Shown: piece by piece, positions 14,100 through 46,040 of the stretch | Layout of the letters: every line of letters starts with the position of its first letter | Position numbering within the stretch: position 1 is the first letter of the stretch | NCBI GenBank assembly: GCA_902522955.1 | Contig: CABYXR010000004.1 | Coordinates: 1-58,527 of the forward strand | Source: an uncultured Pelagibacteraceae bacterium | GTDB lineage: Bacteria; Pseudomonadota; Alphaproteobacteria; Pelagibacterales; Pelagibacteraceae | Direction of reading: 5' to 3' | DNA length: 58,527 nucleotides | Position numbers and translations under genes: made by a program | Notes under the pieces: generated by a model | What the model saw: only the letters and a program-made list of their open reading frames with translations | The model's database searches: none | Told to the model about the DNA's origin: nothing

Positions 14100-14771
14100 A
14101 TGTTTTCAAAAGAACTAGGCGCAAAATTAGATAAGTTTCATTTACTTAAACATCCATTTTATCAAGTTTATTGGAATGAAGGAAAATTAACTCGAGAAAT
14201 TATTAAAGATTATGCTGAACAATACTATCAACATGTTAAAGCTTTCCCAAGGTATATTAGTGCTACTCATTCTATTTGTGAGGATCTTGAAAAAAGAAGA
14301 ATACTTTTAGAAAATTTACAGGATGAAGAAAATAAAGATGGTGATCATCCAAAACTATGGAAGAACTTTGCAAAAGCTTTAGGAGCTGATGAGAAGAAAA
14401 TAGAAAATGTTAAATTAGATTGGTTTACTAAAGATATGATAGATAATTTTTTCTCCCAAGCAAGAAAATCATATGCTGAAGGTTTGGCTTCATTGTATAC
14501 TTATGAAAGACAAATTCCAGAAATAGCTGAAACTAAAATTCAGGGATTAAAAAAATTCTATGGAGTAAGTTCTAAAGAGGGATTAGAATTTTTCGAGGCT
14601 CATAAATCTGCAGATGTTATCCATAGAGCAGAGTGTGAGAAACTCTTAGATGGGCTTTCCAAAGAAGAGCAAGTAAAAGCAGAAAAAGCTTCAGTTTTAA
14701 CTGCAAGATATCTTTGGAATTTTTTAAGTGGAATGACTTCTAAGCATAAGCTTGAGTCAGTTGCTGCTTAA
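14100..14771 (+). CDS. PqqC/TenA-fold diiron-type oxidase, CADD-like
   Basis: 223 residues, all-helical heme-oxygenase-like fold. The N-terminus has HPFYQVYW, and putative metal ligands follow in the CADD/HDO pattern: E76, H83, E136, H168, D172 and H175. In Chlamydia the related CADD protein makes p-aminobenzoate from its own tyrosine; other members are diiron oxidases. Here tyrosines 21 and 24 lie near the expected active site. A pABA role is inference. Preceded by AGGAG and the DnaA-box gap. Followed after 22 bases by the nucleotidyltransferase gene, so it may be part of the apr cluster transcript. Confidence 0.75.
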   Translation: MFSKELGAKLDKFHLLKHPFYQVYWNEGKLTREIIKDYAEQYYQHVKAFPRYISATHSICEDLEKRRILLENLQDEENKDGDHPKLWKNFAKALGADEKKIENVKLDWFTKDMIDNFFSQARKSYAEGLASLYTYERQIPEIAETKIQGLKKFYGVSSKEGLEFFEAHKSADVIHRAECEKLLDGLSKEEQVKAEKASVLTARYLWNFLSGMTSKHKLESVAA

Positions 14772-14793: not shown

Positions 14794-15174
14794 ATGAAGA
14801 ACGATGATCATGTTTGGGACAATAAACTCCCAACTGCACAGATGCTTGGTCGATGGCAGCCATGGCACGAAGGTCACCAAAAACTTTTTGAGGAAATTCT
14901 GAAAAAAACTGGCCAAGTAAATATCATGGTTCGTGACGTTAAAGGAGTTGATGACAATCCATTTGATTTTGAAACAGTAAAAAAAAACATTCTTGAAGCT
15001 TTAAAAGATTATAGAAATAGAATTCAAGTCACTTTAGTTCCTAACATCACAAATATTTGTTACGGAAGAGGAGTAGGTTATAAAATAGAGGAATTAGTTC
15101 TTGATGAAAAAACACAACAAATTTCAGCTACTAAAATTAGAGAACAAATGAGAAAAGAGGGAAAACTTAAATAG
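14794..15174 (+). CDS. Small nucleotidyltransferase (HxGH fold), candidate APS-processing enzyme
   Basis: 126 residues from ATG (a TTG one codon earlier is possible). It is a single nucleotidyltransferase domain: GRWQPWHEGH at 19-28 contains the nucleotide-binding HxGH signature, and ISATKIR at 110-116 is the C-terminal ISxTxxR signature. Both motifs are shared by ATP sulfurylase and by cytidylyl/adenylyltransferases. It is far shorter than Sat (about 380-570 residues) and lacks the PUA-like domain. It lies just upstream of aprM-aprB-aprA, whose product APS needs a transferase to yield ATP or ADP. That role is inferred from position and motifs only. Confidence 0.75.
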   Translation: MKNDDHVWDNKLPTAQMLGRWQPWHEGHQKLFEEILKKTGQVNIMVRDVKGVDDNPFDFETVKKNILEALKDYRNRIQVTLVPNITNICYGRGVGYKIEELVLDEKTQQISATKIREQMRKEGKLK

Positions 15175-15191
15175 TTGCGAGCTATTCTCAC

Positions 15192-15220
15192 TTGACCTGC
15201 AATTGTCACCTATATAAAAT
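15192..15220 (+). promoter_or_regulatory. Sigma-70-like promoter for aprMBA
   Basis: TTGACC (15192-15197) and TAAAAT (15215-15220) are separated by 17 bases. The aprM ATG is 23 bases after the -10, with GAGGG in between as ribosome-binding site. This places the apr genes under their own promoter in addition to any read-through from upstream. Confidence 0.6.
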
Positions 15221-15243
15221 AATTATTTCGAGGGAAAATCATT

Positions 15244-16035
15244 ATGTTTAAAAATAATCCATTTGCAGACTTAGCTTTAGTTTTACCTGCTGCAGCAATG
15301 CAGTTATTTGTTATTGCAATGATACTATTAATCATAGTTAGCACTGGATTAGATATGATCCATAAAAAAAATGTAATTTATTTTTTCAGAAACGCAAAAA
15401 AAGCAAAAAAATCTGCAAAAACAGAGTTAAGTGCTGGAAAGAAAACTGCTGTAATATTAAAAACAGTAGCACATGATATTGCAACTACTTCTGAACTTGG
15501 TTTGGGTAAAAGAAGATTAGCACATGTGTTAGGCATGTATGGAACAATTTTATTTTGGATTGCTTCGGTAGCTTTAATTTTTAATTATACCGATGGCTCT
15601 ATTGCTCCCACATATGTAACTGTAACATGGCATGTTGGAGCACTTATGACTTGTCTAGGGGGATATTGGTTCTGGTTTTTTTTAAGAGTTGACGTTTCAG
15701 CGGAAGCTCATCCTTGGTATAGAATTATTACGGCAGATTTATTTGTTTTAGCATTATTGGCTTGTGCAACTTTTGGATTAGCCTGGTCATATACACAATT
15801 TTCTGATTTGGTTGGGCTTAGTTATCTATTTCTAATTTTATATATTATTTCAAATTTAATTTTGTTTGGAGGGGTTTACTGGTCTAAATTTGCTCACATG
15901 TTTTATAAACCAGGAGCAGCGATTCAAAAGAATTTAGCAGAAGCAGATGGATCTAGAGACAATTTGCCACCACCTGCTGATGCTCCTGAGCAATTTGGCC
16001 TAGGAATTAAAAGAGAACAACCTAAGCATTATTAG
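15244..16035 (+). CDS. aprM: AprM-type membrane subunit associated with APS reductase
   Basis: 263 residues with about five or six membrane segments, a basic cytoplasmic loop (FRNAKKAKKSAK) and a soluble tail. The position directly before aprB and aprA matches the membrane partner called AprM in sulfur-oxidising bacteria that lack QmoABC. In that setting it is proposed to pass electrons between AprBA and the quinone pool. Hydrophobic histidine-bearing helices (THVGALMTCLGGY-like, here WHVGALMTC) could bind heme, but this is not shown. Preceded by a clear promoter. Confidence 0.82.
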   Translation: MFKNNPFADLALVLPAAAMQLFVIAMILLIIVSTGLDMIHKKNVIYFFRNAKKAKKSAKTELSAGKKTAVILKTVAHDIATTSELGLGKRRLAHVLGMYGTILFWIASVALIFNYTDGSIAPTYVTVTWHVGALMTCLGGYWFWFFLRVDVSAEAHPWYRIITADLFVLALLACATFGLAWSYTQFSDLVGLSYLFLILYIISNLILFGGVYWSKFAHMFYKPGAAIQKNLAEADGSRDNLPPPADAPEQFGLGIKREQPKHY

Positions 16036-16075
16036 GGATTTTATGGTAAGAAACTTTAAGGAATAAAATTAAATT

Positions 16076-16546
16076 ATGTCCACTTTTGTATACATGACTA
16101 GATGTGATGGTTGCGGACACTGCGTAGATATTTGTCCATCAGACATTATGCATATAGATGAAACAATTAGACGAGCTAAAAATATTGAACCAAACTTTTG
16201 TTGGGAGTGCTATTCATGTGTTAAAGCTTGCCCCAATCACGCCATAGATGTTAGAGGTTACGCTGACTTTGCTCCTATGGGTCATAGCGTGAGAGTAAGA
16301 AGAGAAGAGGAAAAAGGAACTATTTCTTGGAAGATTAAGTTTAGGAATGGAACAGAAAAAGATTTTGTTTCGCCTATTACCACTAAACCATGGGGAAAAT
16401 TTATTCCAAAGCTAGCTGATGGCGACAAACCCAGACAGGGAGAAATGAACTCACAAGTTTTGTATTCTGAACCTGAAGGTTTAGATACAAAAAAAGACTT
16501 ACCTACAATTAATAAAGACTCATTTAAAAAAGGTGTTTATTACTAA
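16076..16546 (+). CDS. aprB: Adenylylsulfate reductase beta subunit (two 4Fe-4S clusters)
   Basis: 156 residues. Ferredoxin-like domain with cysteines at 10, 13, 16, 20 and 42, 45, 48, 52, enough for two 4Fe-4S clusters. A C-terminal tail follows that in known structures wraps around the alpha subunit. With AprA it interconverts sulfite plus AMP and adenylylsulfate; here the direction is probably sulfite oxidation. The stop overlaps the aprA start by one base (TAATG), so the subunits are translationally coupled. Confidence 0.95.
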   Translation: MSTFVYMTRCDGCGHCVDICPSDIMHIDETIRRAKNIEPNFCWECYSCVKACPNHAIDVRGYADFAPMGHSVRVRREEEKGTISWKIKFRNGTEKDFVSPITTKPWGKFIPKLADGDKPRQGEMNSQVLYSEPEGLDTKKDLPTINKDSFKKGVYY

Positions 16547-18405
16547 TGCCTAAAAATAAAACAGTTCATGAAAGTTGTGATGTTCTAGTTGTTGGAGGCG
16601 GAATGGCTGGTACAGGCGCCACGTTTGAAGCACGACATTGGGGAAGAGATTTAAAAATCATTTGTGTTGAAAAAGCAAATATAGATAGAAGTGGTGCAGT
16701 CGCTCAGGGACTTTACGCTATTAACTGTTACATGGGCATGAGGTGGAATGAAAATCAACCTGAAGATCATGTTAGATATGCAAGGAACGATTTAATGGGA
16801 CTTGTTCGTGAAGACCTAGGATATGACATGGCACGCCACGTTGACTCAACTGTTCATATGTTTGATGAATGGGGACTACCAATGATGAAGGATAAAAAGA
16901 CTGGTAGATATCAGAGAGAAGGTAAGTGGCAAATAATGATACATGGTGAAAGCTACAAACCCATCGTAGCAGAGGCTGCTAAAAAATCTGCAGATAAAAT
17001 TTATAACAGAATTATGGTTACTCATTTATTAATGGATGAAAATGAGGAAAATAGAGTAGGTGGAGCAGTAGGGTTTAATATGAGAACCGGAGATTATCAC
17101 GTATTCAAGGCCAAGACGGTTATAGTTGCTGCTGGTGGAGCATCACATATTTTCAAACCAAGATCAGTCGGAGAAGGCATGGGAAGAACTTGGTATGCCC
17201 CTTGGAGCAATGGCTCAGCTTACGCACTACCGATAGCGGTGGGTGCAAAAATGACTCAAATGGAAAATAGAATTGTACTATGTAGATTTAAAGATGGGTA
17301 TGGCCCAGTGGGTGCATATTTTTTACACTTAAAAACCTATACACAAAATGCTAACGGAGAAAATTACGAAAAGAAATGGTATGATAAAACTAAAGAATTA
17401 GTTGGAGAGTATATAGATCATCACCCAACACCAACTTGTTTGAGAAATCACGCTTTTATTCAAGAAGTAATGGCTGGCGGCGGACCAATTCATATGGTTA
17501 CAAAAGAAGCATTTCAAGACCCGCATTTAGAAACCGTTGGTTGGGAAAATTTTTTAGGAATGACTGTAGGTCAAGCTGTCGTTTGGGCATCTCAAAATAT
17601 TGATCCAAAATATACAAATCCAGAATTAACCACATCAGAACCTTACGTAATGGGATCTCATGCTACATGTTCAGGAGCCTGGGTTAGTGGGCCAGAGGAT
17701 ATTGCTCCACCTGAATACTTTTGGGGTTATAATAGAATGACTACAGTACAAGGTTTATTTGGGGCAGGAGATACCGTTGGAGGTAGTGCACATAAGTTCT
17801 CTTCAGGATCATTTACTGAAGGTAGATTAGCAGCTAAAGCTGCAGTAAAATACATAGAAGATAAAAAAGCAGAAAATTTAAAAGTTTCAGATAATCAATG
17901 TGATAATTTAAAAGAGACAATATACAAACCTCTAGAAAACTATACTGTAGGACGTAACGAAATTACTGGAGGAACAGTTTCACCAAGCTATATTTTGCCA
18001 ATTCAAGGATTGCAAAGACTACAAAAAATTATGGATGAATATGTTGGTGGTATTACTGCAAATTATATGACTAACGACAATCTTCTTAAAAAAGGTTTAG
18101 AACTTTTAGATTGGTTACAAGAAGATTTAGAAAATGTGGGTGCCGAGGATTATCATCAATTGATGAGAGCTTGGGAACTCAAACACAGAACTTTAACTTC
18201 TCAATGCGTTACAGAGCATACTTTATTTAGAGAGGAAACTCGTTGGCCAGGTTATTATTATAGAGGTGATAAATTAAAATTAGATGATGAAAACTGGCAT
18301 TGCTTAACAGTATCTAGAAGAGACACAAAAACTGGTAAATTCACAATGGAAAAAATGCCTGTATATCACATTGTAGGTGATAAAAAAGAAAAGAAAGCCT
18401 CATAA
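16546..18405 (+). CDS. aprA: Adenylylsulfate reductase alpha subunit (FAD)
   Basis: 619 residues, the usual size. Flavoprotein of the fumarate reductase/succinate dehydrogenase family with the FAD-binding VVGGGMAGTGATFEARH near residue 15, and the AprA-type segments NCYMGMRW and HATCSGAWVSGPED. Catalyses AMP-dependent oxidation of sulfite to APS in sulfur oxidisers. No sulfate-reduction genes (dsrAB, qmo) or assimilatory cysH/cysI are in view, and sulfite-releasing enzymes (Xsc, SuyAB) sit a few kb downstream, so sulfite disposal is the logical role. Confidence 0.95.
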   Translation: MPKNKTVHESCDVLVVGGGMAGTGATFEARHWGRDLKIICVEKANIDRSGAVAQGLYAINCYMGMRWNENQPEDHVRYARNDLMGLVREDLGYDMARHVDSTVHMFDEWGLPMMKDKKTGRYQREGKWQIMIHGESYKPIVAEAAKKSADKIYNRIMVTHLLMDENEENRVGGAVGFNMRTGDYHVFKAKTVIVAAGGASHIFKPRSVGEGMGRTWYAPWSNGSAYALPIAVGAKMTQMENRIVLCRFKDGYGPVGAYFLHLKTYTQNANGENYEKKWYDKTKELVGEYIDHHPTPTCLRNHAFIQEVMAGGGPIHMVTKEAFQDPHLETVGWENFLGMTVGQAVVWASQNIDPKYTNPELTTSEPYVMGSHATCSGAWVSGPEDIAPPEYFWGYNRMTTVQGLFGAGDTVGGSAHKFSSGSFTEGRLAAKAAVKYIEDKKAENLKVSDNQCDNLKETIYKPLENYTVGRNEITGGTVSPSYILPIQGLQRLQKIMDEYVGGITANYMTNDNLLKKGLELLDWLQEDLENVGAEDYHQLMRAWELKHRTLTSQCVTEHTLFREETRWPGYYYRGDKLKLDDENWHCLTVSRRDTKTGKFTMEKMPVYHIVGDKKEKKAS

Positions 18406-18415
18406 AATTCTTTAA

Positions 18416-18766
18416 ATGGACTTGATAGAAAAAAGTGATGAAGAAATCATTAAGATTGCTAGTCCTATTTGGTCAAATTTAGTAAAATCTTCAAACATTA
18501 AGGATTATGGTGGATTTACAAAAGATTTTTCCTCTCAAATGCTTTATGGCGCAAACGAAGTTGAGCTTGGAAAGCAATGGGCAAGCAACAAACTTCTTAC
18601 TAGCTTGTCTGAGAAACAAGAAGTTTTAGGCTGCATTCGAAGGGATAAATTTATTACAGTACTTTATAAACAAAAAAGTAACACTTTAACTGGTGAATTT
18701 TTAGGAAGGTTAGTCTTAGGAATGGAGGGAGATATAGTTAAAGTATTTGGAGCCACTATTTATTAA
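18416..18766 (+). CDS. 116-residue hypothetical protein downstream of aprA
   Basis: Starts 10 bases after the aprA stop and ends 36 bases before the TauE/SafE gene, so it is probably part of the apr transcript. It is soluble, without signal or membrane segment. An N-terminal helical half (DEEIIKIASPIWSNLVKSSN) is followed by a strand-rich half ending in GRLVLGMEGDIVKVFGATIY. The order resembles small alpha+beta (NTF2- or cupin-adjacent) proteins, but I recognise no family. A role in sulfite oxidation is inference from position. Confidence 0.7.
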   Translation: MDLIEKSDEEIIKIASPIWSNLVKSSNIKDYGGFTKDFSSQMLYGANEVELGKQWASNKLLTSLSEKQEVLGCIRRDKFITVLYKQKSNTLTGEFLGRLVLGMEGDIVKVFGATIY

Positions 18767-18802: not shown

Positions 18803-19936
18803 ATGCTAGATATTTACCTACCGATAGCTCAAGTCAATGTAGATATCTTTTTATTACTTTTCTTAAGTTTAGCAGTAGGAGTTCTTTCAGGTTTATTTGG
18901 AGTGGGAGGTGGTTTTCTTATGACACCTTTTTTGATTTTTATGGGGATTCCGCCAGTTTATGCAGTTCCTAATGAAGTGAATAATATATTAGCTACATCT
19001 GTTTCTGGATCTCTTACTCATTGGTATAAAAATACTTTAGACTACAAAATGGGATTATTAATAGTTTCTGGAGGTATCGTGGGAACTATCGTAGGGATTA
19101 CAACTTTTTCTTATTTTTCAGAGATAGGAAAAATCAGTTTGATCATCTCACTTTTGTATATGTACTTATTAGCGATAGTAGGAACTTTAATGTTAATTGA
19201 AGGCATAAAAGAAAAAAGTATTAAAAAAAAGAAAATTTTAATTAAACAAAAATTACACGATCATAATTGGTTACAAGGTTTACCTTTAAGAATGCGTTTT
19301 CACAAATCAAAGTTATACGAAAGCGCCATTGTACCTATATTTTTAGGTTTGGTTGTAGGTTTTGTTGCGTCTATGATGGGTATAGGGGGAGCTTTTTTAA
19401 TGGTACCAGCAATGATTTATATAGTTGGAATGCCAATTAAACTAATACCAGGAACCTCTTTATTTGTGACAATTTTTATTAGTGCAATAGTTACAATTCT
19501 TCATGCCTTCAACTATGGTTCAATAGACTTATTTTTAGTAATTCCTTTAATTTTAGGATCAATTGTGGGTGTTCAATTAGGACAAAAATTAGGACAATTT
19601 TTAGATAGCACAGAGTTGAAATCTCTATTTGCTATGTTGTTATTGACAGTTTCTATAGCTATAGGATACGACTCCTTTTTTAGAGAGAAATCAAATATAA
19701 ATAGTGGAAACCAAGTTGCCAAAACTGATCTAAACACCATCGCAGAATTTACAGTAAACTTTTCTAATGATGTTCCATTTTTATATGGTTCATTAGCAAT
19801 CTTATTAGCAATTTCTTTAGGAGCACTCGCTGCTTTTGCAAGAAAGATTTTAAGTCCAATAATTAGAAAGTTATTAAGTGATTTCAGAAAAAAAGAAGAA
19901 CCTAAAAAAGAAGAAATTAAATTTCCAGAAAAATAA
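18803..19936 (+). CDS. tauE: TauE/SafE-family sulfite or sulfonate exporter
   Basis: 377 residues with eight or more membrane segments. Two internal repeats each carry a glycine-rich family signature: GLFGVGGGFLMTPFLIFMG near residues 32-50 and a second GIGGAFLMVPAMIY near 195. The family exports sulfite, sulfoacetate or other small anions across the inner membrane. Its place after aprBA, and near xsc and suyAB, fits export of excess sulfite or sulfate. A C-terminal lysine/glutamate-rich tail is unusual but small. It is convergent with suyB (2-base gap). Confidence 0.85.
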   Translation: MLDIYLPIAQVNVDIFLLLFLSLAVGVLSGLFGVGGGFLMTPFLIFMGIPPVYAVPNEVNNILATSVSGSLTHWYKNTLDYKMGLLIVSGGIVGTIVGITTFSYFSEIGKISLIISLLYMYLLAIVGTLMLIEGIKEKSIKKKKILIKQKLHDHNWLQGLPLRMRFHKSKLYESAIVPIFLGLVVGFVASMMGIGGAFLMVPAMIYIVGMPIKLIPGTSLFVTIFISAIVTILHAFNYGSIDLFLVIPLILGSIVGVQLGQKLGQFLDSTELKSLFAMLLLTVSIAIGYDSFFREKSNINSGNQVAKTDLNTIAEFTVNFSNDVPFLYGSLAILLAISLGALAAFARKILSPIIRKLLSDFRKKEEPKKEEIKFPEK

Positions 19937-21468: not shown

Positions 21469-23250
21469 ATGGCTAAAATGACAACAGAAGAGGCTTTTGT
21501 AAAAGTTTTACAAATGCACGGAATAGAACACGCTTTTGGAATAATAGGTTCAGCTTTTATGCCTATTTCAGATATTTTTCCTGATGCTGGTATCACTTTT
21601 TGGGATGTAGCTCACGAAACTAATGGCGGACTTATAGCAGATGGATATACAAGAGCGACAGGAAAAATGTCTATGGTTATAGCTCAAAATGGACCTGGTA
21701 TAACAGGTTTAGTAACTCCTATTAAAACTGCTTATTGGAATCATACTCCTTTACTTTTAGTTACACCTCAAGCAGCAAATAAAACTATGGGACAAGGTGG
21801 TTTTCAAGAAGTTGAACAAATGAACTTGTTCAAAGATATGGTTTGCTATCAAGAAGAAGTCAGAGATCCTTCTAGAATGGCAGAAGTTTTAAACCGAGTT
21901 ATAGAAAAAGCTATTAGAGGGTCGGCTCCAGCACAAATTAACGTGCCAAGAGATTATTGGACTCAAGTGATAGATATTGATTTACCCCCTATAGTAAGAT
22001 TAGAAAGACAAGCAGGTGGAGCAGAGGCAATTGACAAAGCGGCAAAATTACTTTCAGAAGCAAAATTCCCAGTTATACTTTCAGGTGCAGGCGTTGTAAT
22101 TGGAGGAGCGATAGAAGATTGTGTTAAATTAGCAGAAAAATTAGACTCACCCGTATGCTCTGGTTATCAACATAACGATAGTTTCCCGGGAAGCCATCCA
22201 TTAGCTGTTGGCCCTTTAGGATATAATGGCTCAAAAGCTGGGATGGAGTTAATTGCAAAAGCAGATGTTGTTTTAGCTTTAGGAACAAGACTTAACCCTT
22301 TTTCTACTTTACCAGGTTACGGAATAGATTATTGGCCAAAAAATGCGAAAATAATTCAAGTTGATATGAATTCAGATAGAATTGGATTAACAAAAAAAGT
22401 AACAGTAGGAATATGTGGTGATGCAAAACTTGTTACTCAACAATTAATTGCAAAACTTTCTTCTAAAGCAGGAGACGCAGATAGACAAAAAAGAAAAGAC
22501 TTAATTCACCAAACAAAATCAGCTTGGTTGCAAAAATTATCTAGTCTAGATCACGAGGAAGATGATGCAGGTACTGTTTGGAACAAAGAGGCAAGAGAGA
22601 GAGATAAGGATAGAATGTCTCCAAGACAAGCATGGAGAGCTATACAAGCCGGTATGCCAAAAGACGTTATTATTTCAAGTGATATTGGAAATAATTGTGC
22701 CATAGGTAATGCTTACCCAACTTTTGAAAAAGGTAGAAAATATTTGGCGCCAGGATTATTTGGGCCTTGCGGTTATGGTTTTCCAGCAATACTTGGAGCA
22801 AAGATTGGTTGCCCTAATACTCCTGTGATTGGATTTGCAGGAGATGGTGCATTTGGAATTAGTATGAACGAAATGAGTTCATGTGCTCGTAAAGAATGGC
22901 CTGCAATATCTATGGTTATTTTTAGAAATTATCAATGGGGTGCAGAGAAAAGAAATTCTATTTTATGGTTTGATGATAATTTTATAGGTACCGAGCTAGA
23001 TCCAGAGTTAAGCTATTCTAAAGTTGCAGATGCTTGCGGTTTAAAAGGTGTAACAGTTAAAACAATGGAAGAAACTACTAAAGCTATTAAACAATCTTGT
23101 GAAGATCAAAAGAAAGGTATCACTACATTTATTGAAGTTATTTTAAATCAAGAATTAGGTGAACCTTTTAGAAGAGATGCTATGAAAAAACCTGTTAGAG
23201 TTGCGGGGATAAAAAAATCTGATATGAAGCAACAAAAAAGCCTAATTTAA
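21469..23250 (+). CDS. xsc: Sulfoacetaldehyde acetyltransferase
   Basis: 593 residues, thiamine diphosphate enzyme of the acetolactate synthase superfamily. The N-terminal domain has the catalytic glutamate in WDVAHETNGGLIADGY, and the C-terminal ThDP motif is GDGAFGISMNE followed by FRNYQWGAEKRNS. The stretch PAQINVPRDYW is Xsc-like. The reaction is sulfoacetaldehyde plus phosphate to acetyl phosphate and sulfite. It joins the taurine (Tpa) and possible isethionate (GMC) branches, feeds Pta at 36.5 kb and supplies sulfite to AprBA. The 3' end overlaps a convergent peptidase gene by 9 bases. Confidence 0.93.
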   Translation: MAKMTTEEAFVKVLQMHGIEHAFGIIGSAFMPISDIFPDAGITFWDVAHETNGGLIADGYTRATGKMSMVIAQNGPGITGLVTPIKTAYWNHTPLLLVTPQAANKTMGQGGFQEVEQMNLFKDMVCYQEEVRDPSRMAEVLNRVIEKAIRGSAPAQINVPRDYWTQVIDIDLPPIVRLERQAGGAEAIDKAAKLLSEAKFPVILSGAGVVIGGAIEDCVKLAEKLDSPVCSGYQHNDSFPGSHPLAVGPLGYNGSKAGMELIAKADVVLALGTRLNPFSTLPGYGIDYWPKNAKIIQVDMNSDRIGLTKKVTVGICGDAKLVTQQLIAKLSSKAGDADRQKRKDLIHQTKSAWLQKLSSLDHEEDDAGTVWNKEARERDKDRMSPRQAWRAIQAGMPKDVIISSDIGNNCAIGNAYPTFEKGRKYLAPGLFGPCGYGFPAILGAKIGCPNTPVIGFAGDGAFGISMNEMSSCARKEWPAISMVIFRNYQWGAEKRNSILWFDDNFIGTELDPELSYSKVADACGLKGVTVKTMEETTKAIKQSCEDQKKGITTFIEVILNQELGEPFRRDAMKKPVRVAGIKKSDMKQQKSLI

Positions 23251-35832: not shown

Positions 35833-36539
35833 TTTCGGTAAATTATACAATTTAATTTATCATAGAATTGAATATTTTTTTTGTATTTAAAATTAATTTC
35901 TTTTATACCCATTATAATATCTTTATTAGTAAATTTTAATAGACAAGAAATATATCTATTCCTCAGCATCTTTAAGTAATCCTTCTTAGATATTTTTACT
36001 TTAAATTTAAAACAATCTTGTTGGTATTTTTTAAAATTGGATTTTATTATCCTAAATAAATTTTTATCAATCTCTAAGCTTTTATTTAATTGTTCTCTCA
36101 TTTTTTTAAAAGCCGGTAACTCGTTTTTAGTAGTTATAAGTGAGAATATTAAAATTTTCCCTTTTTTTGATAGGCGTTTTTTAGCGAAATTTAATAATAT
36201 CTTTACATCTTTCTTTTTAAAAAAATGGATAGTTTGTTTAATTAAAATCAAGTCAAATAATTCCTTTGAACTTTTCAAATATTTAATGGCATCACCTTTT
36301 TTAAATAAAATATTTTTTTTAATATCTTTATTTTTAAATATATCAATACCAATAGGTCTCCTCACAAATTTGTATTGATTACTTAAATAGCTAATTATAT
36401 TTGCTCTTCCACAACCTATATCTAATATTTTAGTAGATTTATTAATCTTGATTTTAGATTTTAGATATTTGTGAAAGGAAATAATATATTCTTTCGAAGA
36501 TAACCAGGTTTCGTTATCCCAATTCCTTAAATATTTCAT
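35829..36539 (-). CDS. Class I SAM-dependent methyltransferase
   Basis: 236 residues. Motif I ILDIGCGRANIISYL near residue 40 and a following IGIDIF give the SAM site. LILIKQTIHFFKKKD is motif IV-like. Substrate unknown. It follows pta by a one-base overlap (ATTAG region) and ends the minus-strand gene run that begins at tauA. Confidence 0.82.
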   Translation of the reverse strand: MKYLRNWDNETWLSSKEYIISFHKYLKSKIKINKSTKILDIGCGRANIISYLSNQYKFVRRPIGIDIFKNKDIKKNILFKKGDAIKYLKSSKELFDLILIKQTIHFFKKKDVKILLNFAKKRLSKKGKILIFSLITTKNELPAFKKMREQLNKSLEIDKNLFRIIKSNFKKYQQDCFKFKVKISKKDYLKMLRNRYISCLLKFTNKDIIMGIKEINFKYKKNIQFYDKLNCIIYRN

Positions 36540-37447
36540 TAGAGAGCGACTATTGCTGCTGCTATAGAGGCTATTCTAGCTGGATTACTATCAGCTCTAC
36601 TTGTTATTACCACTGGCACTTTTCCTCCGACTACCACACCTGCAGCACAGGCACCCATAAAATATATCATCATCTTTACTAGTGCGTTACCTGACTCTAC
36701 ATTAGGGACTAAAAGAATATCAGTTTTACCTGCAACACTATTTTTAATCCCCTTAATTTGAGCCGCTTGTTTTGAAACAGAATTATCAAAAGCCATAGGA
36801 CCGAATACATCGGCTTCAATACCCTCTTTGTTTGCTCTATCAGTAAGATTTTTTGCTTCTATAGAACTTGGCACACTTTCAATAGTTTCTTCTGTAGCTG
36901 ATAAAATTGACACTTTAGGTCTTTTAATACCTATTCTTTTAGCAAAATCGACTGAGTTTTTTAAAATATGCATTTTGGTTTCTAGCTTTGGTAAAACATT
37001 TAAGGCACCATCAGTAATTATAAAGGGATTATCATTTTTATCTAAGGTCATATGCCAAATGTGACTTAATCTTTTTTTTCCCATTAAATTTAAATCTCTT
37101 TTTAAAACAGCTTTCATCAAAATATCAGTATGAATATGGCCTTTGACTAATATCTTTACTTTTCCCTCGCTAGCTAATTTAGCTGCAATTAAAGCAGTAT
37201 TATTTTCAACTGGTTCATGTAAAATCTCATATTTTGAGATATCCCATCCTATATCTTTAGCTATTTTTTCTATAATGGGTTTGTCACCGACAAAAATAGG
37301 ATTTACCAAACCTTCGTCCACTGCTTGTTTGGATGATTCCATTGCAAGTGTTTTTCCAGCATTAACAATAACAACATTTATTGGTCCTTTCATTTTTGCA
37401 ATTTTCAATAAATTTTCTGGACAGATAATTTCTTTTTTAGATAACAT
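36539..37447 (-). CDS. pta: Phosphate acetyl/butyryltransferase
   Basis: 302 residues of the PTA/PTB family, single-domain type. Motifs: NVVIVNAGKTLAMESSKQAV, FVGDKPIIEKIAKDIGWD and GPMAFDNSVSKQAAQIKGI. Catalyses acetyl phosphate plus CoA to acetyl-CoA. This is the step after Xsc, so carbon from taurine and isethionate enters central metabolism. It overlaps the upstream ComC-type gene by 11 bases, part of a long coupled minus-strand run below tauC. Confidence 0.88.
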   Translation of the reverse strand: MLSKKEIICPENLLKIAKMKGPINVVIVNAGKTLAMESSKQAVDEGLVNPIFVGDKPIIEKIAKDIGWDISKYEILHEPVENNTALIAAKLASEGKVKILVKGHIHTDILMKAVLKRDLNLMGKKRLSHIWHMTLDKNDNPFIITDGALNVLPKLETKMHILKNSVDFAKRIGIKRPKVSILSATEETIESVPSSIEAKNLTDRANKEGIEADVFGPMAFDNSVSKQAAQIKGIKNSVAGKTDILLVPNVESGNALVKMMIYFMGACAAGVVVGGKVPVVITSRADSNPARIASIAAAIVAL

Positions 37448-39650: not shown

Positions 39651-41561
39651 TTATCCTTTTCCTCGCCAAGGAATAGTTTTATCAATGATTTTTCTAATCG
39701 TAATATCAAAAACAAGACCTAACATACCCATAATAAAAATAGTTATCCAAATCACCTCATATTGGAAATATTTTTTAGCAACATTTTCGACAAAACCTAC
39801 TCCAGTGGTTCCTGCTAAAAACTCTGCAGCTACTAAAGTTCCCCAGCACATTCCTGTAGCTACTCTGATACCTGTTAAAATTTCAGGAAGAGAATTTGGA
39901 AATATTACGTGTCTTAAAATTTGCCATTTAGACGCTCCAAGTGAATGAGCAGCATGTATTTTAGATAACTGTGTTCCCGAGGCACCCGCTCGTGCTGAAA
40001 TTATCATGATAGACAATGAAACCATAAATAATAAAAAGACTTTTCCAAGATTATCTATACCCAACACAGATATTACCAGTGGTGCCCAAGCTAAAGGAGG
40101 TACTGGTCTATAAAGTTCGATTAATGGGTCAAAAAAACCTTTCGCAAATCTATTAAGGCCCATATATAAACCTAATGGTACTCCAACTATTATTCCAGCG
40201 ACTAAGCCAAGAAAAACTCTTAAAAAAGAATCCCAAATATGTCCTGTTGGGATTGGTATTTTAAATAATTCAAAGTCTCCTGTTACGAAACTTAAAACTT
40301 TACTTTTTAAGTTTGGTTCAATCTCACCTTTTTCATTATGAACAGGATATTTTCCAGGCAGAGCATCTGCAATCCAATCAGGAAGAAGAAATCCAACTAT
40401 TTTACTCACATCCATCATCTCGTACCAAATTAATGGGATTTGTTTAAATCCAACGTTTGGGTTAAGCATTAATGCAAATTTGTTAACTGTATCAGAAGGT
40501 TTTGGAAGCCACCTACCAGATCCTTGTTCAGAACAGCTAGGTCCACTAGAAATGATTGTTCCGGATGGGAATAAAAGTATATCAACCCATCTCAAACCAC
40601 CTTGTTCTTTTTTTTGAACTTCATCGAAGTTCACTATAGATGATTGCATATCTTTTAATGTATTAGGTGGAAATATACTTGCGTATTCAATTCTTCTTGC
40701 AATTTTAAGAATATCTTTTGCAAAAGATGAAGAAATTTCTTCAGAGGGACTTAATCCAGATCTGTAATCTTTTATCTCTTTTTTCAGATTTTCAAGTGCA
40801 ACTGTATATTGTTGATTATGATTTCTTAGCTCAAAGAATTGATCGCTAATTAAATTTAATTCTACTGCAGCAGCTTGAAATTTTAATCCTCTTTTCGTTT
40901 TTGGTATAGACGGTATTTCAATAGTGTTTTCCACTGATGTACTGGATGCACTCCATGTTCCTTCCTCTTTAGAAGCTTTTATCCTTTCAATTTTTTCTTC
41001 TGGACTTTCATTTGGATAGTCTATACTTGCAAAATCCCTTGCTAAATTATTAATTTTCTCAGTTACTGTTCTAATTTGTTCTTTAGTTTCGTTATTTAAA
41101 AGTTTTTCATTAGTAAGCAAAGGAATAGTACTTTTTGTCGTAGTAACAAAATTAATTAATTTTTCTTTATCTTGGCTATTAACCTTATCGGATTTCTTTA
41201 TGTCAAAAATTGTATTATCTAAATTTTCAGTTTCAGTTTCTATAACAGACGTACTTTTTAGTTGTCGTTCATGAATTGGAAAAAGGTATTTAAGCGAAAG
41301 CAAGGATTCATTCACTTTTCCAACTTGACAAAGTTCATTAGCAGATTTTGGAAAGAAAGATTTAGCTATATCCCAAGAATAATAAAGCCAAACTAACAGC
41401 AAAAAACTGCTTCCTACAATAACCCAGTGAACTCCACCTTTCGATCTTTCAGGATTTCCAAAAACAGCATCAACTTTTTCTGTTTTTATTAATTTTCTTC
41501 CATATAAAATAGAACCTACTATAGCGAAGAAAAATAAAAATGTTAGAAATCCTGTTATCAT
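39651..41561 (-). CDS. tauC: Taurine/sulfonate ABC transporter permease with a long N-terminal extension
   Basis: 636 residues, more than twice the usual TauC length. Residues about 440-630 are the permease, with the EAA-type cytoplasmic loop at 537-555 (AAHSLGASKWQILRHV). The first 435 residues contain two hydrophobic segments (1-20, 44-62), then a long charged, helix-rich region (about 100-320) and further segments before 440. Function of the extension is unknown; it may lie in the periplasm and contact the binding protein. One base separates it from tauB. Confidence 0.9.
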   Translation of the reverse strand: MITGFLTFLFFFAIVGSILYGRKLIKTEKVDAVFGNPERSKGGVHWVIVGSSFLLLVWLYYSWDIAKSFFPKSANELCQVGKVNESLLSLKYLFPIHERQLKSTSVIETETENLDNTIFDIKKSDKVNSQDKEKLINFVTTTKSTIPLLTNEKLLNNETKEQIRTVTEKINNLARDFASIDYPNESPEEKIERIKASKEEGTWSASSTSVENTIEIPSIPKTKRGLKFQAAAVELNLISDQFFELRNHNQQYTVALENLKKEIKDYRSGLSPSEEISSSFAKDILKIARRIEYASIFPPNTLKDMQSSIVNFDEVQKKEQGGLRWVDILLFPSGTIISSGPSCSEQGSGRWLPKPSDTVNKFALMLNPNVGFKQIPLIWYEMMDVSKIVGFLLPDWIADALPGKYPVHNEKGEIEPNLKSKVLSFVTGDFELFKIPIPTGHIWDSFLRVFLGLVAGIIVGVPLGLYMGLNRFAKGFFDPLIELYRPVPPLAWAPLVISVLGIDNLGKVFLLFMVSLSIMIISARAGASGTQLSKIHAAHSLGASKWQILRHVIFPNSLPEILTGIRVATGMCWGTLVAAEFLAGTTGVGFVENVAKKYFQYEVIWITIFIMGMLGLVFDITIRKIIDKTIPWRGKG

Positions 41562-42359
41562 TTAAATTTCTTTACCCATTATTTCTTCTTCCATATCCCA
41601 AATCATTGAGAGTATTTCCTCTCTTTTAGATACGAATTCGCTGTTATTTTTGATTTCTCTTAAATCTTCTTTAAGTCCCATGGCTGCAAAAGGTAACTTA
41701 TACTCTTTATGGATCCTCCCAGGCCTGGGTGCCATTACATAAACTTTTTCTCCAAGTAACAAAGCCTCTTCAACTGAGTGAGTTATAAGTATTATTGTTT
41801 TTCCAGTTTCTTTCCAAATTTTAAGAACCAAAGATTGCATTTTTTCTCTAGTTAAAGCATCAAGTGCGCCTAACGGTTCATCCATTAATATTAAGTCGGG
41901 GTCATTAATTAAACATCTTGCTAGCGCAACTCTTTGCTGCATACCTCCAGACAATTGATATGTGGGTGTGTTTCCAAAGCCTTGCAATCCAACTATGTCT
42001 AACCATTCATCTACTTTTTTTTGAGTTTGAATTGGATCTTTATCTTTCATTCTTAATCCAAAATTTACATTTTCAGCAACCGTTAACCATTCAAACAAAG
42101 CTCCTTGTTGAAAAACCATTCCTCTATCAACACCTGGTCCATTGATTTCTTTATTATTGAGAGAAATTTTTCCAGAGGTTGGTCTTATAAATCCTGCAGT
42201 AATGTTTAATAAAGTTGTTTTTCCACAACCAGAAGGCCCAAGCACAGTAAGTAATTCTCCTTTTTTTATTGTAAAATTTAAATCTTTAAGAGCATGAACA
42301 GTTTCTCCTTTAGGAGTTTTAAAAATCATGTTTAAATTTTGGGAAATTAGGTCACTCAT
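41562..42359 (-). CDS. tauB: Taurine/sulfonate ABC transporter ATPase
   Basis: 265 residues. Walker A GPSGCGKTT at 41-49, signature LSGGMQQR at 136-143 and Walker B LILMDEP at 156-162, all of nitrate/sulfonate/taurine type (SsuB/TauB). Energises TauC. Preceded on the same strand by tauA, with an 80-base gap that holds a terminator-like hairpin. Confidence 0.93.
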   Translation of the reverse strand: MSDLISQNLNMIFKTPKGETVHALKDLNFTIKKGELLTVLGPSGCGKTTLLNITAGFIRPTSGKISLNNKEINGPGVDRGMVFQQGALFEWLTVAENVNFGLRMKDKDPIQTQKKVDEWLDIVGLQGFGNTPTYQLSGGMQQRVALARCLINDPDLILMDEPLGALDALTREKMQSLVLKIWKETGKTIILITHSVEEALLLGEKVYVMAPRPGRIHKEYKLPFAAMGLKEDLREIKNNSEFVSKREEILSMIWDMEEEIMGKEI

Positions 42360-42384
42360 AAAAGAACTATATTAGATATTTCGA

Positions 42385-42420
42385 TAAAAAAATAGGCACC
42401 AATAACAATATTGGCGCCTA
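42385..42420 (-). terminator. Terminator/attenuator between tauA and tauB
   Basis: On the minus strand, 42420-42409 pairs with 42404-42393 (12 bp including one G-U, loop of 4 bases), followed by a U7 run (42391-42385). It lies 20 bases after the tauA stop. Like the dctP-dctQ hairpin, it would favour excess binding protein over membrane components. Confidence 0.85.
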
Positions 42421-42439
42421 TAATTTTCATTCTCTAGAA

Positions 42440-43378
42440 CTACGGTAAAAACTTAGTATTTACTGTACCTCTTGGAGTGTCAAAACCTTTTAAGAATTTT
42501 GCAAGATTTCCACTCTTCATAGATTTTTTAGTTTCTTTTGGCGTTAAGAATTTAAAGCCACTTAAAGTATCATTCATGTCAGCAACTTTCATTTCGGACT
42601 CTTTTGACATAGCTTTTAAATCACTTTTACCAGCTCTAAATCTTGCATTAGCTTCGTGTGTTAATTCCACAAAAGATTTAACCATACCTGGGTTTTCTTT
42701 CATGAATTTATTTGTAACAGAAACGATATCTATACCCATGATACCACCTGCACGAGCTTCGTCTACTGATAGAAGTCTTGTTCCTACAGATGTAGCAGAT
42801 TTAATTGAATTACCACCAAACAAACATGCCATTACAACATCGCCACTAACTAAAGCAGCCGCACCTTCTTCAGGATCCATTGCAATAATGTTCATTTTTT
42901 TCCTGTCAGCTCCAACAATTTTCATACTTTCTGTGAAAACATATTCAGCCATAGTTCCTAATGGAACTGCAACTTTTTTACCTTCAAGCTCTGAAGCATT
43001 AGCTTTAGTTATTCCAGATTTTTTAGAAGTTACACAAGTTGTTCCACCCATGCCGTATTCCATAGCAACGTCTACTAAACTTATAGGCGCTTTGGCTTTA
43101 ACAGCATTTATATAAGGCATTAATCCTTGTGAGTAAGAGATGTCTATATCTCCTGCTAACATAGCATCAGTCATTGCTACACCGTTAGTAAAATTTGTCC
43201 ATTTAACTGGAACACCAAGTGCTTTTGCATATGCTTTTTTGTTCATGTCCTCAAGATTTGGAGATGGCCACTCCAAAAAGTACGCAACTCTAACTTCTTT
43301 AGCAGCTGCATTAGCCACTGAAGCGTTTAAAGAAAACGCAAATAAAATCCCAAGAACTGTGCTTATTATTTTTTTCAT
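42440..43378 (-). CDS. tauA: Taurine-binding periplasmic protein
   Basis: 312 residues with a signal peptide (24 residues ending in SVANA). SsuA/TauA-like periplasmic fold: EVRVAYFLEWPSPN near the start and ADRKKMNIIAMDPEEGAAALVSGDV in the middle. Taurine is the leading ligand because tpa and ald are divergent from it, but other sulfonates cannot be excluded. Divergent from tpa across a 182-base gap with a palindrome. Confidence 0.88.
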   Translation of the reverse strand: MKKIISTVLGILFAFSLNASVANAAAKEVRVAYFLEWPSPNLEDMNKKAYAKALGVPVKWTNFTNGVAMTDAMLAGDIDISYSQGLMPYINAVKAKAPISLVDVAMEYGMGGTTCVTSKKSGITKANASELEGKKVAVPLGTMAEYVFTESMKIVGADRKKMNIIAMDPEEGAAALVSGDVVMACLFGGNSIKSATSVGTRLLSVDEARAGGIMGIDIVSVTNKFMKENPGMVKSFVELTHEANARFRAGKSDLKAMSKESEMKVADMNDTLSGFKFLTPKETKKSMKSGNLAKFLKGFDTPRGTVNTKFLP

Positions 43379-43560: not shown

Positions 43561-44922
43561 ATGTCTACTAATTTAATTATGAGTTCCTCTAATAGAACAA
43601 ATATACCTAATTCATTAAACGAGCACTGGATGCCGTTTACAGACAATAAAAATTTTAAGAAAAATCCTAGACTAATTACTGATGCTAAGGGTGTTTACCT
43701 AACTAACCACGAAGGAAAGAAGATGATTGATGCAAGCTCTGGCTTATTTTGCAATCCTTTGGGACACGGAAGAAAAGAAATTACTGAAGCAGTTTCAAAA
43801 CAATTAGACAAATTAGACTACTGCCAACCATTTAATCAGGGTTATGGAGGCTCATTTGAATTAGCTACTAGAATAGCAAAAAAAACACCTGAAGGAATTA
43901 ATAGAATATTTTATACTATTTGTGGTTCAACAGCAGTAGAAACAGCTATAAAAATAGCAATCGCTTATCACAGAGCAAAAGGAGACTCAAAAAGATTTAG
44001 ATTTGTCGGTCGTGAAAGAGGTTATCACGGCATGAATATCGGAGCTACTACAGTAGGCGGTATGATAAATAATGTAAAAACTTTTGCTAGCGTATTAATG
44101 CCTGGTGTTCAACATATGCGTCATACTCATTTACCTGAACACAAATTTGTAAAGGGTCAACCTGAAACTGGAGTGGAGATGGCCGAAGATTTAGAGAGGA
44201 TAGCAATGAATTTCGGAGGAGAAAATATAGCTGCTTGCATCATTGAACCTATAGCTGGTTCAACAGGAACTTTAGTACCACCTAAGGGTTATTTAAAAAG
44301 AGTGAGAGATATTTGTAATAAACATGGAATTCTATTAATTTTTGATGAGGTTATTACAGGATGGGGAAGAACGGGATCAGCGTTTGCAGCTCAAGAATGG
44401 AATGTTACGCCCGACATTATGACTATGGCCAAAGCCACAACTAACGGTGTCGTACCTATGGGAGTGGTAGCAGTTAAAGAAGAAATTTATGACTCAGTTT
44501 TAGATGCATCATCAGCGCCAGAAGGAACTCCTGAACTATTTCACGGCTATACTTATTCTGGAATACCAGTAGCAGTTGCAGCAGCTTTAGCAGTTCAAGA
44601 TATTTTTGATAAAGAAGATATTTTTAAAAGAGCAAAAGAAATGTCTCCTTATTTACAAGACGGACTTCAATCGCTTAAAGATTTGAAAGAAGTGGTAAGT
44701 ATAAGAGGCTATGGAATGATGGGTGGAATTGAAATGAAAATGAAAGAAAAACCCGGAAAAGCAGGCTTTCAAACTTTTAAACATTGTTATGATGCAGGTG
44801 TTAATTTTAAAAATACAGGTGATAATTTAATTATTGCCCCTCAATTTATATGTGAGAAAAAACATATAGACGAGATAATTGAAAAACTAAGAACAGGTAT
44901 TTCAAATTACTCTAAGGCATAA
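43561..44922 (+). CDS. tpa: Taurine-pyruvate aminotransferase
   Basis: 453 residues, class III aminotransferase. PLP-lysine in IMTMAKATTNG, LIFDEVITGWGRTG before it, and GTLVPPKGYL. Reaction: taurine plus pyruvate to sulfoacetaldehyde plus alanine. Position between tauABC and ald supports taurine over related omega-amino acids. An internal ATG six codons later is a possible start. Sulfoacetaldehyde then goes to Xsc at 21.5 kb. Confidence 0.88.
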   Translation: MSTNLIMSSSNRTNIPNSLNEHWMPFTDNKNFKKNPRLITDAKGVYLTNHEGKKMIDASSGLFCNPLGHGRKEITEAVSKQLDKLDYCQPFNQGYGGSFELATRIAKKTPEGINRIFYTICGSTAVETAIKIAIAYHRAKGDSKRFRFVGRERGYHGMNIGATTVGGMINNVKTFASVLMPGVQHMRHTHLPEHKFVKGQPETGVEMAEDLERIAMNFGGENIAACIIEPIAGSTGTLVPPKGYLKRVRDICNKHGILLIFDEVITGWGRTGSAFAAQEWNVTPDIMTMAKATTNGVVPMGVVAVKEEIYDSVLDASSAPEGTPELFHGYTYSGIPVAVAAALAVQDIFDKEDIFKRAKEMSPYLQDGLQSLKDLKEVVSIRGYGMMGGIEMKMKEKPGKAGFQTFKHCYDAGVNFKNTGDNLIIAPQFICEKKHIDEIIEKLRTGISNYSKA

Positions 44923-46040
44923 TGATTATCGGAGTTCCAAAGGAGATCAAACTTCAAGAACATAGAGTCGGTTTAACTCCTGAAAGCGTTCAGGCTTTAA
45001 CCAAAAAAGGGCATGAGGTTTTGGTTCAAAGCAACGGCGGTTTTGAAGCAGGTTTTACTAATGAAGATTATAAAAACTTTGGGGCTAAAATAATTAATAA
45101 TGCTGAAGAAATTTTTAAAAATTCAGAAATAATTGTCAAAGTAAAAGAACCTCAAATGAACGAGGTAAAAATGATAAGAGAAAATCAAATTATTTATACT
45201 TACTTGCATTTAGCTGCTGCACATGAATTAACAAAAGGATTAATCAAATCTAAATCAATATGTATTGCATATGAAACTGTTACAGATGACAATGGTAGAC
45301 TTCCTTTACTAGCACCTATGAGTGCCGTAGCAGGGAGAATGTCAATTCAGGCTGGTGCACATTCGTTAGAAAAAAATCAAAAGGGAAGAGGTTTATTATT
45401 GGGAGGAGCGCCTGGAGTTGAACCTGCAAATGTAGTTATTTTAGGTGGAGGTGTTGTTGGAGAGAATGCAGCAATAATAGCCACTGGAATGAAAAGTAAA
45501 GTTTATGTGGTAGATAAATCAAAAGAAAGGTTAAAACAATTACATGAAAAGTTTGGAGATAAAATTATTCCTACCGACAGTGAAAAAACTGATTTAAGTA
45601 AATTAGTATCCGAGTGCGATCTTTTAGTAGGTGGAGTTTTGATTCCTGGAGCTGAAGCGCCTAAATTAGTAACAAAAGAAATGATTAAAAAAATGAAAAG
45701 AGGTTCTGTAGTTGTAGATGTTGCAATAGACCAAGGAGGATGTATTGAAACGAGCAAACCAACAACCCATGCAAATCCCACATTTTTAGTTAACGATGTC
45801 GTTCACTATTGTGTCGCTAACATGCCAGGTGGAGTTCCAAGAACATCAACTATGGCATTAAATAAAGCTACTTTACCTTTGTTAATAAAGTTGGCTGATC
45901 AAGGATATAAGCAAACCTTGCAAGAAAATAAGAATTATTTAGCTGGATTAAACGTTTTTAAGGGCAAAGTTACTTACAAAGGAGTAGCTGACGCTTTCAA
46001 ATTAAGCTATACCCCTCCCGAGCAAGCTTTAGTAGAATAA
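44922..46040 (+). CDS. ald: Alanine dehydrogenase
   Basis: 372 residues of the Ald family. The start MIIGVPKEIKLQEHRVGLTP, the NAD motif ILGGGVVGENAA and the MPGGVPRTST segment are all typical. It oxidises alanine to pyruvate and ammonium, returning pyruvate to Tpa. One-base overlap with the tpa stop (TAATG) makes them a coupled pair. The ammonium released links to amtB function only in a general way. Confidence 0.93.
   Translation: MIIGVPKEIKLQEHRVGLTPESVQALTKKGHEVLVQSNGGFEAGFTNEDYKNFGAKIINNAEEIFKNSEIIVKVKEPQMNEVKMIRENQIIYTYLHLAAAHELTKGLIKSKSICIAYETVTDDNGRLPLLAPMSAVAGRMSIQAGAHSLEKNQKGRGLLLGGAPGVEPANVVILGGGVVGENAAIIATGMKSKVYVVDKSKERLKQLHEKFGDKIIPTDSEKTDLSKLVSECDLLVGGVLIPGAEAPKLVTKEMIKKMKRGSVVVDVAIDQGGCIETSKPTTHANPTFLVNDVVHYCVANMPGGVPRTSTMALNKATLPLLIKLADQGYKQTLQENKNYLAGLNVFKGKVTYKGVADAFKLSYTPPEQALVE

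Follow-up and report, generated by a model that had tools for sequence, protein, structure and literature searches.

We analyzed a 58,527-nucleotide stretch of genomic DNA from an uncultured Pelagibacteraceae bacterium (contig CABYXR010000004.1; hereafter, the window) and found that a small gene directly upstream of the adenosine 5′-phosphosulfate (APS) reductase genes aprMBA likely encodes a minimal sulfate adenylyltransferase. To judge from its sequence and predicted fold, the product, a 126-aa nucleotidyltransferase (hereafter, NTase), would belong to the HxGH superfamily but lie outside the Sat and CysDN types of ATP sulfurylase, and would here convert APS and pyrophosphate (PPi) to ATP and sulfate behind AprBA. 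AprBA forms APS from sulfite and AMP, and ATP sulfurylase turns APS and PPi into ATP and sulfate. The partners of the NTase gene in this and other genomes (apr, a kinase, cysH and sulfotransferase genes) have one common denominator, APS or 3′-phosphoadenosine 5′-phosphosulfate (PAPS), and this gene context backs the ATP-sulfurylase idea better than the sequence motifs do. The genes of the locus are as follows.

14100..14771, plus strand: CADD-family protein (TENA/PqqC-like), immediately upstream of the NTase gene (TIGR04305, 300.2 bits; cut-off 200)
14794..15174, plus strand: 126-aa HxGH nucleotidyltransferase, the proposed miniature ATP sulfurylase (from motifs, profiles, predicted fold and aprA linkage)
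15244..16035, plus strand: aprM-like membrane protein of 263 aa, the presumed electron link from AprBA to the membrane (from its position before aprB)
16076..16546, plus strand: aprB, APS reductase beta subunit (TIGR02060, 187.1 bits; cut-off 135.65)
16546..18405, plus strand: aprA, APS reductase alpha subunit (TIGR02061, 1001 bits; cut-off 641.75)
18416..18766, plus strand: 116-aa protein without an assigned function, adjoining aprA in each of the two layouts described below
18803..19936, plus strand: TauE/SafE family protein, of the sulfite exporter family (PF01925, 161.7 bits; cut-off 32.6)

The initial annotation had described a 126-residue protein with HEGH at residues 25–28 and ISATKIR at residues 110–116, and all of this was borne out in the open reading frame at 14794–15174, which starts with ATG and has an in-frame TTG one codon earlier. 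The gene also lies directly upstream of aprM, as had been stated: 69 bases separate its stop codon from the aprM-like start at 15244, and aprB and aprA both score over their NCBIfam cut-offs. A promoter and terminator scan found fewer sites than the mean of shuffled sequences. HxGH together with IS[AGST]Tx[IL]R occurred in none of 200,000 shuffles of the NTase protein, and GRxQPxHxGH in none of a separate 200,000. In a hand-selected alignment of relatives, the fixed letters of GRxQPxHxGH and SATxxR were invariant in 60 of 60 rows, as was a further block, VPN...I.YGR.VGY (residues 82–96), except for P83 (59 of 60). This block falls mostly outside the stretch matched by the best NMN adenylyltransferase (NMNAT) model (residues 17–88). 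Its YGRGVGY reads YGRDVGY in 8 of the 60 relatives, and one may guess that the arginine of YGR stands in for that of the Sat GRD motif. Among the matches listed, the closest public-genome relatives of the window NTase were from Pelagibacteraceae.

We examined the linkage of the NTase gene with aprA in 150 SAR11-centred genomes around the window genome, its own included; these are related and often incomplete. The NTase gene was present in 87 and aprA in 79, with 75 genomes carrying both, 12 only the NTase gene, 4 only aprA and 59 neither (Fisher p 1.8e-24, uncorrected for relatedness). The gene thus associates with aprA, and not with coenzyme or sugar genes, an alternative that the initial annotation had raised as counting against its proposal. 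The two genes shared a contig in 73 of the 75 genomes, 360 to 1432 bases apart in 72 of these and 3370 bases apart in one; in G061 and G143 they lay on different contigs. Two layouts were seen, the same-strand arrangement of the window (42 genomes) and an opposite-strand arrangement (31 genomes, all of family f2) in which, at loci L048–L052, a kinase gene and the NTase gene run toward the 116-aa gene and aprA. Two genes intervene between the NTase gene and aprM in G063, and in public locus L071 the kinase, NTase, CADD, aprM, aprB and aprA genes are consecutive. Among the genomes with only the NTase gene, it stood at a contig end beside aprM or the 116-aa gene in G065 and G139, between CADD and tauE genes lacking aprMBA in G032 and G081, fused to a kinase in G003, G039, G045, G069 and G089, and next to a kinase gene in G015 and G073; G034 had a divergent partial match. 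Of the four genomes with only aprA, two (G120 and G132) were truncated inside aprA by a contig end, and G144, from outside the order, had two Sats and two aprA genes. The fourth, G072 (7% contaminated), had a HIT-domain gene (PF01230, 67.2 bits) directly before aprM. A reference title in an excerpt of PMC8704414 ascribes APS hydrolase and phosphorylase activity to certain HIT proteins. The presence of a HIT gene before aprM where no NTase gene was found lends weight to the notion that something must cleave APS at this position.

A second line of context came from a kinase that resembles APS kinases. Five relatives, from genomes that gave no aprA match, were 257–262-aa proteins with the NTase as C-terminal half and a P-loop kinase as N-terminal half. 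PF01583 (APS_kinase) scored over its cut-off of 21.1 bits in four of these fusions and below it in the fifth (L043, 16.6), and was the best Pfam match of all four separately encoded kinases scanned (43.9, 43.5, 30.0 and 28.9 bits). A kinase profile compared with solved structures retrieved the APS kinase 2yvu first (1.9e-11), and Foldseek of the predicted 257-aa L063 fusion (pLDDT 81.9) ranked PAPSS1 of human and the APS kinase of Arabidopsis at the top (3.2e-7 and 4.7e-7). The public loci were chosen by similarity to the SAR11 sequences and are a non-random selection. Among the best 80 of at least 247 public genome relatives, 61 had a separate kinase gene (a few with an intervening gene, and one also with apr), 4 a fusion, 7 apr without a kinase and 8 neither; among the best 80 of at least 596 viral relatives, the kinase was separate in 48 and fused in 28, 4 had neither, and none had apr. 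Most SAR11 kinase–NTase loci were flanked by genes such as those for an M24 peptidase, a Rieske protein or a methyltransferase on one side and by HalD-like, enoyl-CoA hydratase, CoA-binding or SBP56 genes on the other, the families having been assigned from ten representatives. SBP56 is presumably a methanethiol oxidase, that is, a sulfur enzyme that does not use APS. A recurrent cluster, found at most of L065–L133, combined the M24 peptidase, HalD-like oxygenase, enoyl-CoA hydratase and CoA-binding protein genes, sometimes with SBP56.

Sulfate assimilation provided a third context. In four genomes (G475, G396, G298 and G166) of a small alphaproteobacterial family, f25, chelatase, cobA, cysI, cysH, kinase and NTase genes followed one another on one strand, about 280 to 300 bases separating cysH from the kinase gene. 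In G475, CobA (273.7 bits; cut-off 185), CysI (707.4; 457) and CysH (248.2; 154) exceeded their cut-offs and the chelatase stayed under its own; CysH of G166 scored 251.9 against 154, and the remaining genes of the G396, G298 and G166 clusters were read by eye. The NTase gene was found in five of six f25 genomes (the G528 match contains a stop), and three of the four genomes read had no Sat or CysD match over cut-off, the weak CysD hit of G396 lying in its cysH. Completeness of the f25 genomes ranges from 54 to 89%, and contamination in G475 is 6%. The NTase gene closes a siroheme–cysI–cysH cluster, in the place where one would look for Sat or CysDN, and this is the strongest single item of context.

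Sulfotransferase genes also adjoined the kinase–NTase unit. In two SAR11 loci (L046 and L047), it was followed by a sulfotransferase gene (PF00685, 22.4 and 29.7 bits; cut-off 22). Of 67 upstream neighbors listed from the viral loci, 50 were scanned, and Sulfotransfer_1 and Sulfotransfer_3 matched 27 and 26 of them, respectively (E ≤ 0.01, overlap between the two not separated). Many viral contigs (L134–L213) carried sulfotransferase, kinase and NTase genes in this order or a fused kinase–NTase gene, suggesting virus-directed sulfation. Five named phages had an NTase relative; in the two that were read, it was not directly beside an annotated sulfur gene. In Stenotrophomonas and Clavibacter phages (KU682439.2 and OR548257.1), a divergent kinase–NTase fusion is annotated as "hypothetical protein" or "kinase."

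We also considered whether known enzymes could fill the same place. No sat gene had been noticed in the 58 kb, and this now extends to the whole host assembly (0.92 Mb, 37 contigs, 80.8% complete), in which PF01747 had no match; a full-length Sat, which the initial annotation had regarded as decisive against its proposal, was thus not found there. PF01747 was present in 8 of the 150 genomes, four of them with aprA. Besides G144, these four were G048, G061 and G118, in which Sat and apr lay on different contigs and Sat stood near genes that resembled sulfation or polysaccharide genes by eye. Within the order, 78 genomes carry aprA, and 75 of these, many of them incomplete, gave no Sat match in this search. 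None of the 16 genomes tested for CysD, including five aprA-bearing ones of the SAR11 order (G000, G021, G062, G078 and G091), had a match over the cut-off, and the host genome had no CysD match at all; G329, of the class, had one at 227.9 bits, below threshold. The alternative of APS:phosphate adenylyltransferase (APAT), which we take to belong to the ATP_transf family PF09830, had likewise been put forward for checking, and ATP_transf was over cut-off in none of 12 genomes (three weak sub-threshold matches). Excerpts of published work state that most SAR11 lack ATP sulfurylase (PMC10356861, 2023) and that SAR11 is unable to use sulfate as a sulfur source (PMC7891661), so that the NTase would not be expected to serve assimilation there. 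Each of the SAR11-side Sat-like genes (L033–L036) has a pyruvate-kinase-like gene next to it, and three of the four also have an APS-kinase-like gene there (by eye). Kinase–NTase fusions, too, can be flanked by pyruvate-kinase-like genes, as at L042 (PF00224) and, by eye, at L041; this hints at a single sulfation module whose APS-forming enzyme can be exchanged.

As for its family, the NTase scored 21 bits against PF01467 (CTP_transf_like), equal to the cut-off of 21, which places it in the HxGH superfamily; against PF01747 (ATP-sulfurylase), it scored 14.9 bits, under the cut-off of 24.3 and hence outside Sat, and TIGR00339 (Sat) gave no match at E ≤ 1. No CysD model was among its profile matches (CysN was not searched). 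The best NCBIfam matches were NMNATs, PRK01153 (27.9 bits vs. a cut-off of 127) and TIGR01527 (21.5 vs. 181.2), and a 60-row NTase profile compared with solved structures retrieved NMNATs (best 9.3e-9) and no Sat. The AlphaFold2 model of the window NTase (pLDDT 90.5, pTM 0.83) had a Rossmann-like NMNAT/phosphopantetheine adenylyltransferase (PPAT) fold. Its best Foldseek matches were NMNATs, at about 3e-4, with an archaeal NMNAT at the top, and in VIA-align PPATs and NMNATs tied (for the best of each, Z about 11 and an rmsd of about 2.8 over 110 to 113 residues). No Sat chain was among the best 50 Foldseek or the best 50 VIA-align rows, a result that is still compatible with a relation to Sat. 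By sequence and model, the NTase therefore belongs to the HxGH nucleotidyltransferases but to none of the families described so far. The structural comparison with Sat proposed earlier thus pointed to other enzymes, and the two signatures once read as marks of ATP sulfurylase proved to be superfamily-wide; since NMNAT and PPAT models and structures match best, the shared motifs alone are uninformative on sulfate. Of the earlier idea that the protein replaces ATP sulfurylase by acting on APS, the motif argument was lost, and the idea itself is supported by gene context.

Several observations weigh against an ATP sulfurylase. The Sat motifs QxRNxxHxxH and GRD, taken from an excerpt of PMC3779200 and an alignment of eight Sat-like proteins, are not kept, the NTase having GRWQPWHEGH and YGRGVGY. 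When its profile was set against that of eight SAR11-side Sat-like proteins, the HxGH regions aligned weakly (45% probability over 79 columns), and the nearest relatives by both sequence and fold are NMNATs and PPATs. Some scores of the kinase also count against it: a general P-loop model, AAA_33, outscored APS_kinase in four of the five fusions, the NCBIfam apsK equivalog gave 20.0–21.7 bits for four fusions against a cut-off of 138.7, and the kinase of a cysI–cysH cluster (L227) matched PRK05541 at 32.7 bits against a cut-off of 127. No sulfation or assimilation gene was recognized at most SAR11 kinase–NTase loci, and one of the six f25 genomes, G166, has a Sat, at a polysaccharide-like locus. 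The co-occurrence counts come from related, often incomplete genomes. A kinase gene adjoined the NTase gene at all six f2 apr loci read (L048–L052 and L244), so that APS could drain to PAPS instead of being cleaved. Finally, an intact NTase gene stood between CADD and tauE genes at L242, L243 and L060, where aprMBA and the 116-aa gene are missing, indicating that it can outlive apr, at least temporarily.

These points bear on three other explanations. One takes up the fold and the motifs: the NTase could adenylylate NMN or nicotinate mononucleotide, and its fusion with the kinase could serve NAD salvage in the manner of NadR. Both the NPF element and GRxQPxHxGH do align with NMNATs, which supplied the best NCBIfam, PDB and Foldseek matches, but the score of 27.9 bits is far from the cut-off of 127. 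The host genome also already has a NadD candidate (129.7 bits, above 112.45, with one stop inside the matched stretch), and NadD-like matches at E ≤ 1e-10 were present in it and in 9 of 11 other genomes tested (over cut-off in 3 of the 12). Given, in addition, a partner kinase that resembles APS kinases and neighbors that include apr, cysH, cysI and sulfotransferase genes, we regard a role in NAD synthesis as improbable. A role for the NTase and its kinase partner in adenylylating some other small molecule unrelated to sulfate, the apr link being regulatory or historical, is more improbable still. It would account for the SAR11 kinase–NTase loci without a recognized APS-using gene and for the persistence of the NTase gene without adjoining apr in three genomes; against it, three unlike neighborhoods (apr, cysI–cysH and sulfotransferase) have APS or PAPS in common, the kinase is APS-kinase-like, and Sat and CysD matches over cut-off were not found in three of the four genomes read that carry the assimilation cluster.

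The third explanation keeps APS as the substrate and drops the conservation of energy, the NTase catalyzing APS + Pi → ADP + sulfate or merely removing APS and thereby pulling sulfite detoxification. It is unlikely, although less so than the other two. Gene context indicates APS and not the co-substrate, the HIT gene before aprM in G072 could be read in the same way, and a passage in PMC8889253 describes SAR11 AprAB as thought to detoxify sulfite. On the other hand, the HxGH enzymes in general release or use PPi, and relatives linked to the kinase, cysH or sulfotransferases would need APS made from ATP and sulfate, which is the PPi reaction. An energy-conserving sulfate adenylyltransferase thus remained the reading that we prefer.

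As for the history of the NTase gene, a tree of 64 of 65 chosen sequences (124 columns; bootstrap not settled and many forks unresolved) needed five changes of the apr-linked label, at least three of which are forced by well-supported branches. A single gain and two losses could account for three changes; in any case, the apr association did not form once and then persist throughout. At E ≤ 1e-10, a class-level sample of 385 genomes contained the NTase in 12 (own genome included) and a phylum-level sample of 398 in 2 (own genome and G258), and a broad distribution was accordingly rejected. In the class sample, the kinase gene was adjacent or fused in all 11 NTase genomes other than that of the window; the NTase gene of G440 is split over two frames.

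Some neighbors of the NTase gene deserve mention. The CADD-family protein, which we take to be an alternative p-aminobenzoate synthase, is probably folate-related and outside the sulfur step. Its gene adjoins the NTase gene in the window layout, and none was noticed by eye in the open reading frame lists of the second layout (L048–L052). At the apr locus of G072 (L245, 4266–6907), HIT, aminotransferase IV, class-I glutamine amidotransferase and chorismate-binding genes (pabCAB-like) precede aprM, and the part of the locus covered has no CADD gene; it looks as if unrelated proteins had taken over both the APS step and the role of CADD. The 116-aa protein of the window matched no Pfam or NCBIfam model, and its L048 copy (5168–5518) no Pfam model; kept beside aprA in both layouts, it may be an unrecognized part of the Apr system. 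The aprM-like gene had no Pfam or NCBIfam match over cut-off and was named by position, its product showing a weak similarity to QmoC (21.2 bits, far under the cut-off). An excerpt of PMC2211403 describes aprM for lineage-I sulfur-oxidizing bacteria.

Further genes of the window concern taurine and sulfite.

21469..23250, plus strand: xsc, sulfoacetaldehyde acetyltransferase, the sulfite source (TIGR03457, 967 bits; cut-off 676.4)
36539..37447, minus strand: phosphate acetyl/butyryltransferase-like protein, for acetyl phosphate use (PRK08190, 298.9 bits; cut-off 282; phosphate acetyltransferase models proper under cut-off)
39651..43378, minus strand: taurine/sulfonate-type ABC transporter, with permease, ATPase and binding protein (closest models TauC, taurine ATPase and SsuA family, each scoring under its cut-off)
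43561..46040, plus strand: omega-aminotransferase, a candidate taurine:pyruvate aminotransferase (AptA model, 570.8 bits; cut-off 500), and alanine dehydrogenase (473.4; 391.85)

With xsc, the taurine-type transporter, the omega-aminotransferase, alanine dehydrogenase and the acetyl/butyryltransferase-like gene, a plausible sulfite source is encoded nearby. In the proposed sequence of steps, Xsc would free sulfite during taurine breakdown, AprBA with AprM would convert sulfite and AMP to APS and pass the electrons to the membrane (the genes for both steps are present), and the NTase would then convert APS and PPi to ATP and sulfate, which would leave the cell; for the NTase step, we infer the substrate, the use of PPi, the direction and the gain of ATP. 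The reverse step, from ATP and sulfate to APS, would operate where the NTase partners the kinase, CysH or a sulfotransferase.

Compared with known systems, the NTase would share with Sat (PF01747, TIGR00339) the proposed reaction, the HxxH/HxGH nucleotidyltransferase superfamily and a combination with APS kinase as in PAPS synthases. Sat is about 350–400 aa long, whereas the 126-aa NTase has no room for further domains; Sat has QxRNxxHxxH where the NTase has GRWQPWHEGH, and GRDHAG where it has YGRGVGY, the latter correspondence being a guess. The operon that holds sat in Allochromatium vinosum is presumably aprMBA. An excerpt of PMC3779200 states that A. vinosum sat lies in an operon. CysDN occupies the same place in the pathway as the NTase of the cysI–cysH cluster but is of another protein family and has a GTPase subunit. 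Archaeal NMNATs (presumably NadM, COG1056-type) share the fold and the GRxQPxHxGH, NPF and S-x-T-x-I-R elements; the NTase differs from them in being shorter, in its invariant VPN...I.YGR.VGY block, in scoring far under the NMNAT cut-offs and in its sulfur context. The fusions resemble PAPS synthases (PAPSS1/2 and the Aquifex Sat–APS kinase) in joining an APS kinase and a proposed APS-forming domain in one chain, with the kinase first as in PAPSS1, and differ in that the second domain is the 126-aa NTase, for a total of about 257–271 aa.

It is fairly probable that such proteins, of about 115–135 aa, constitute a third, minimal class of ATP sulfurylase that would serve energy-conserving sulfite oxidation in SAR11, assimilation in some streamlined alphaproteobacteria and, joined to the kinase in a viral PAPS synthase of about 260 aa, the supply of sulfotransferases, and that can be displaced at the apr locus by an APS-cleaving HIT-domain protein. 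Our search of the open-licence literature, with subscription journals and preprints outside its scope, found no earlier description of such an enzyme. According to an excerpt of PMC10356861 (2023), sulfate excretion from taurine has not been demonstrated in cultured SAR11; the NTase makes the fate of APS, and the ATP gain of SAR11 from taurine-derived sulfite, testable through one small protein. If active, the NTase would join Sat and CysDN as a third kind of ATP sulfurylase, and sulfate activation would have gone unnoticed in the annotation of SAR11, of some assimilating alphaproteobacteria and of many viral contigs, because Sat and CysD models do not find it.

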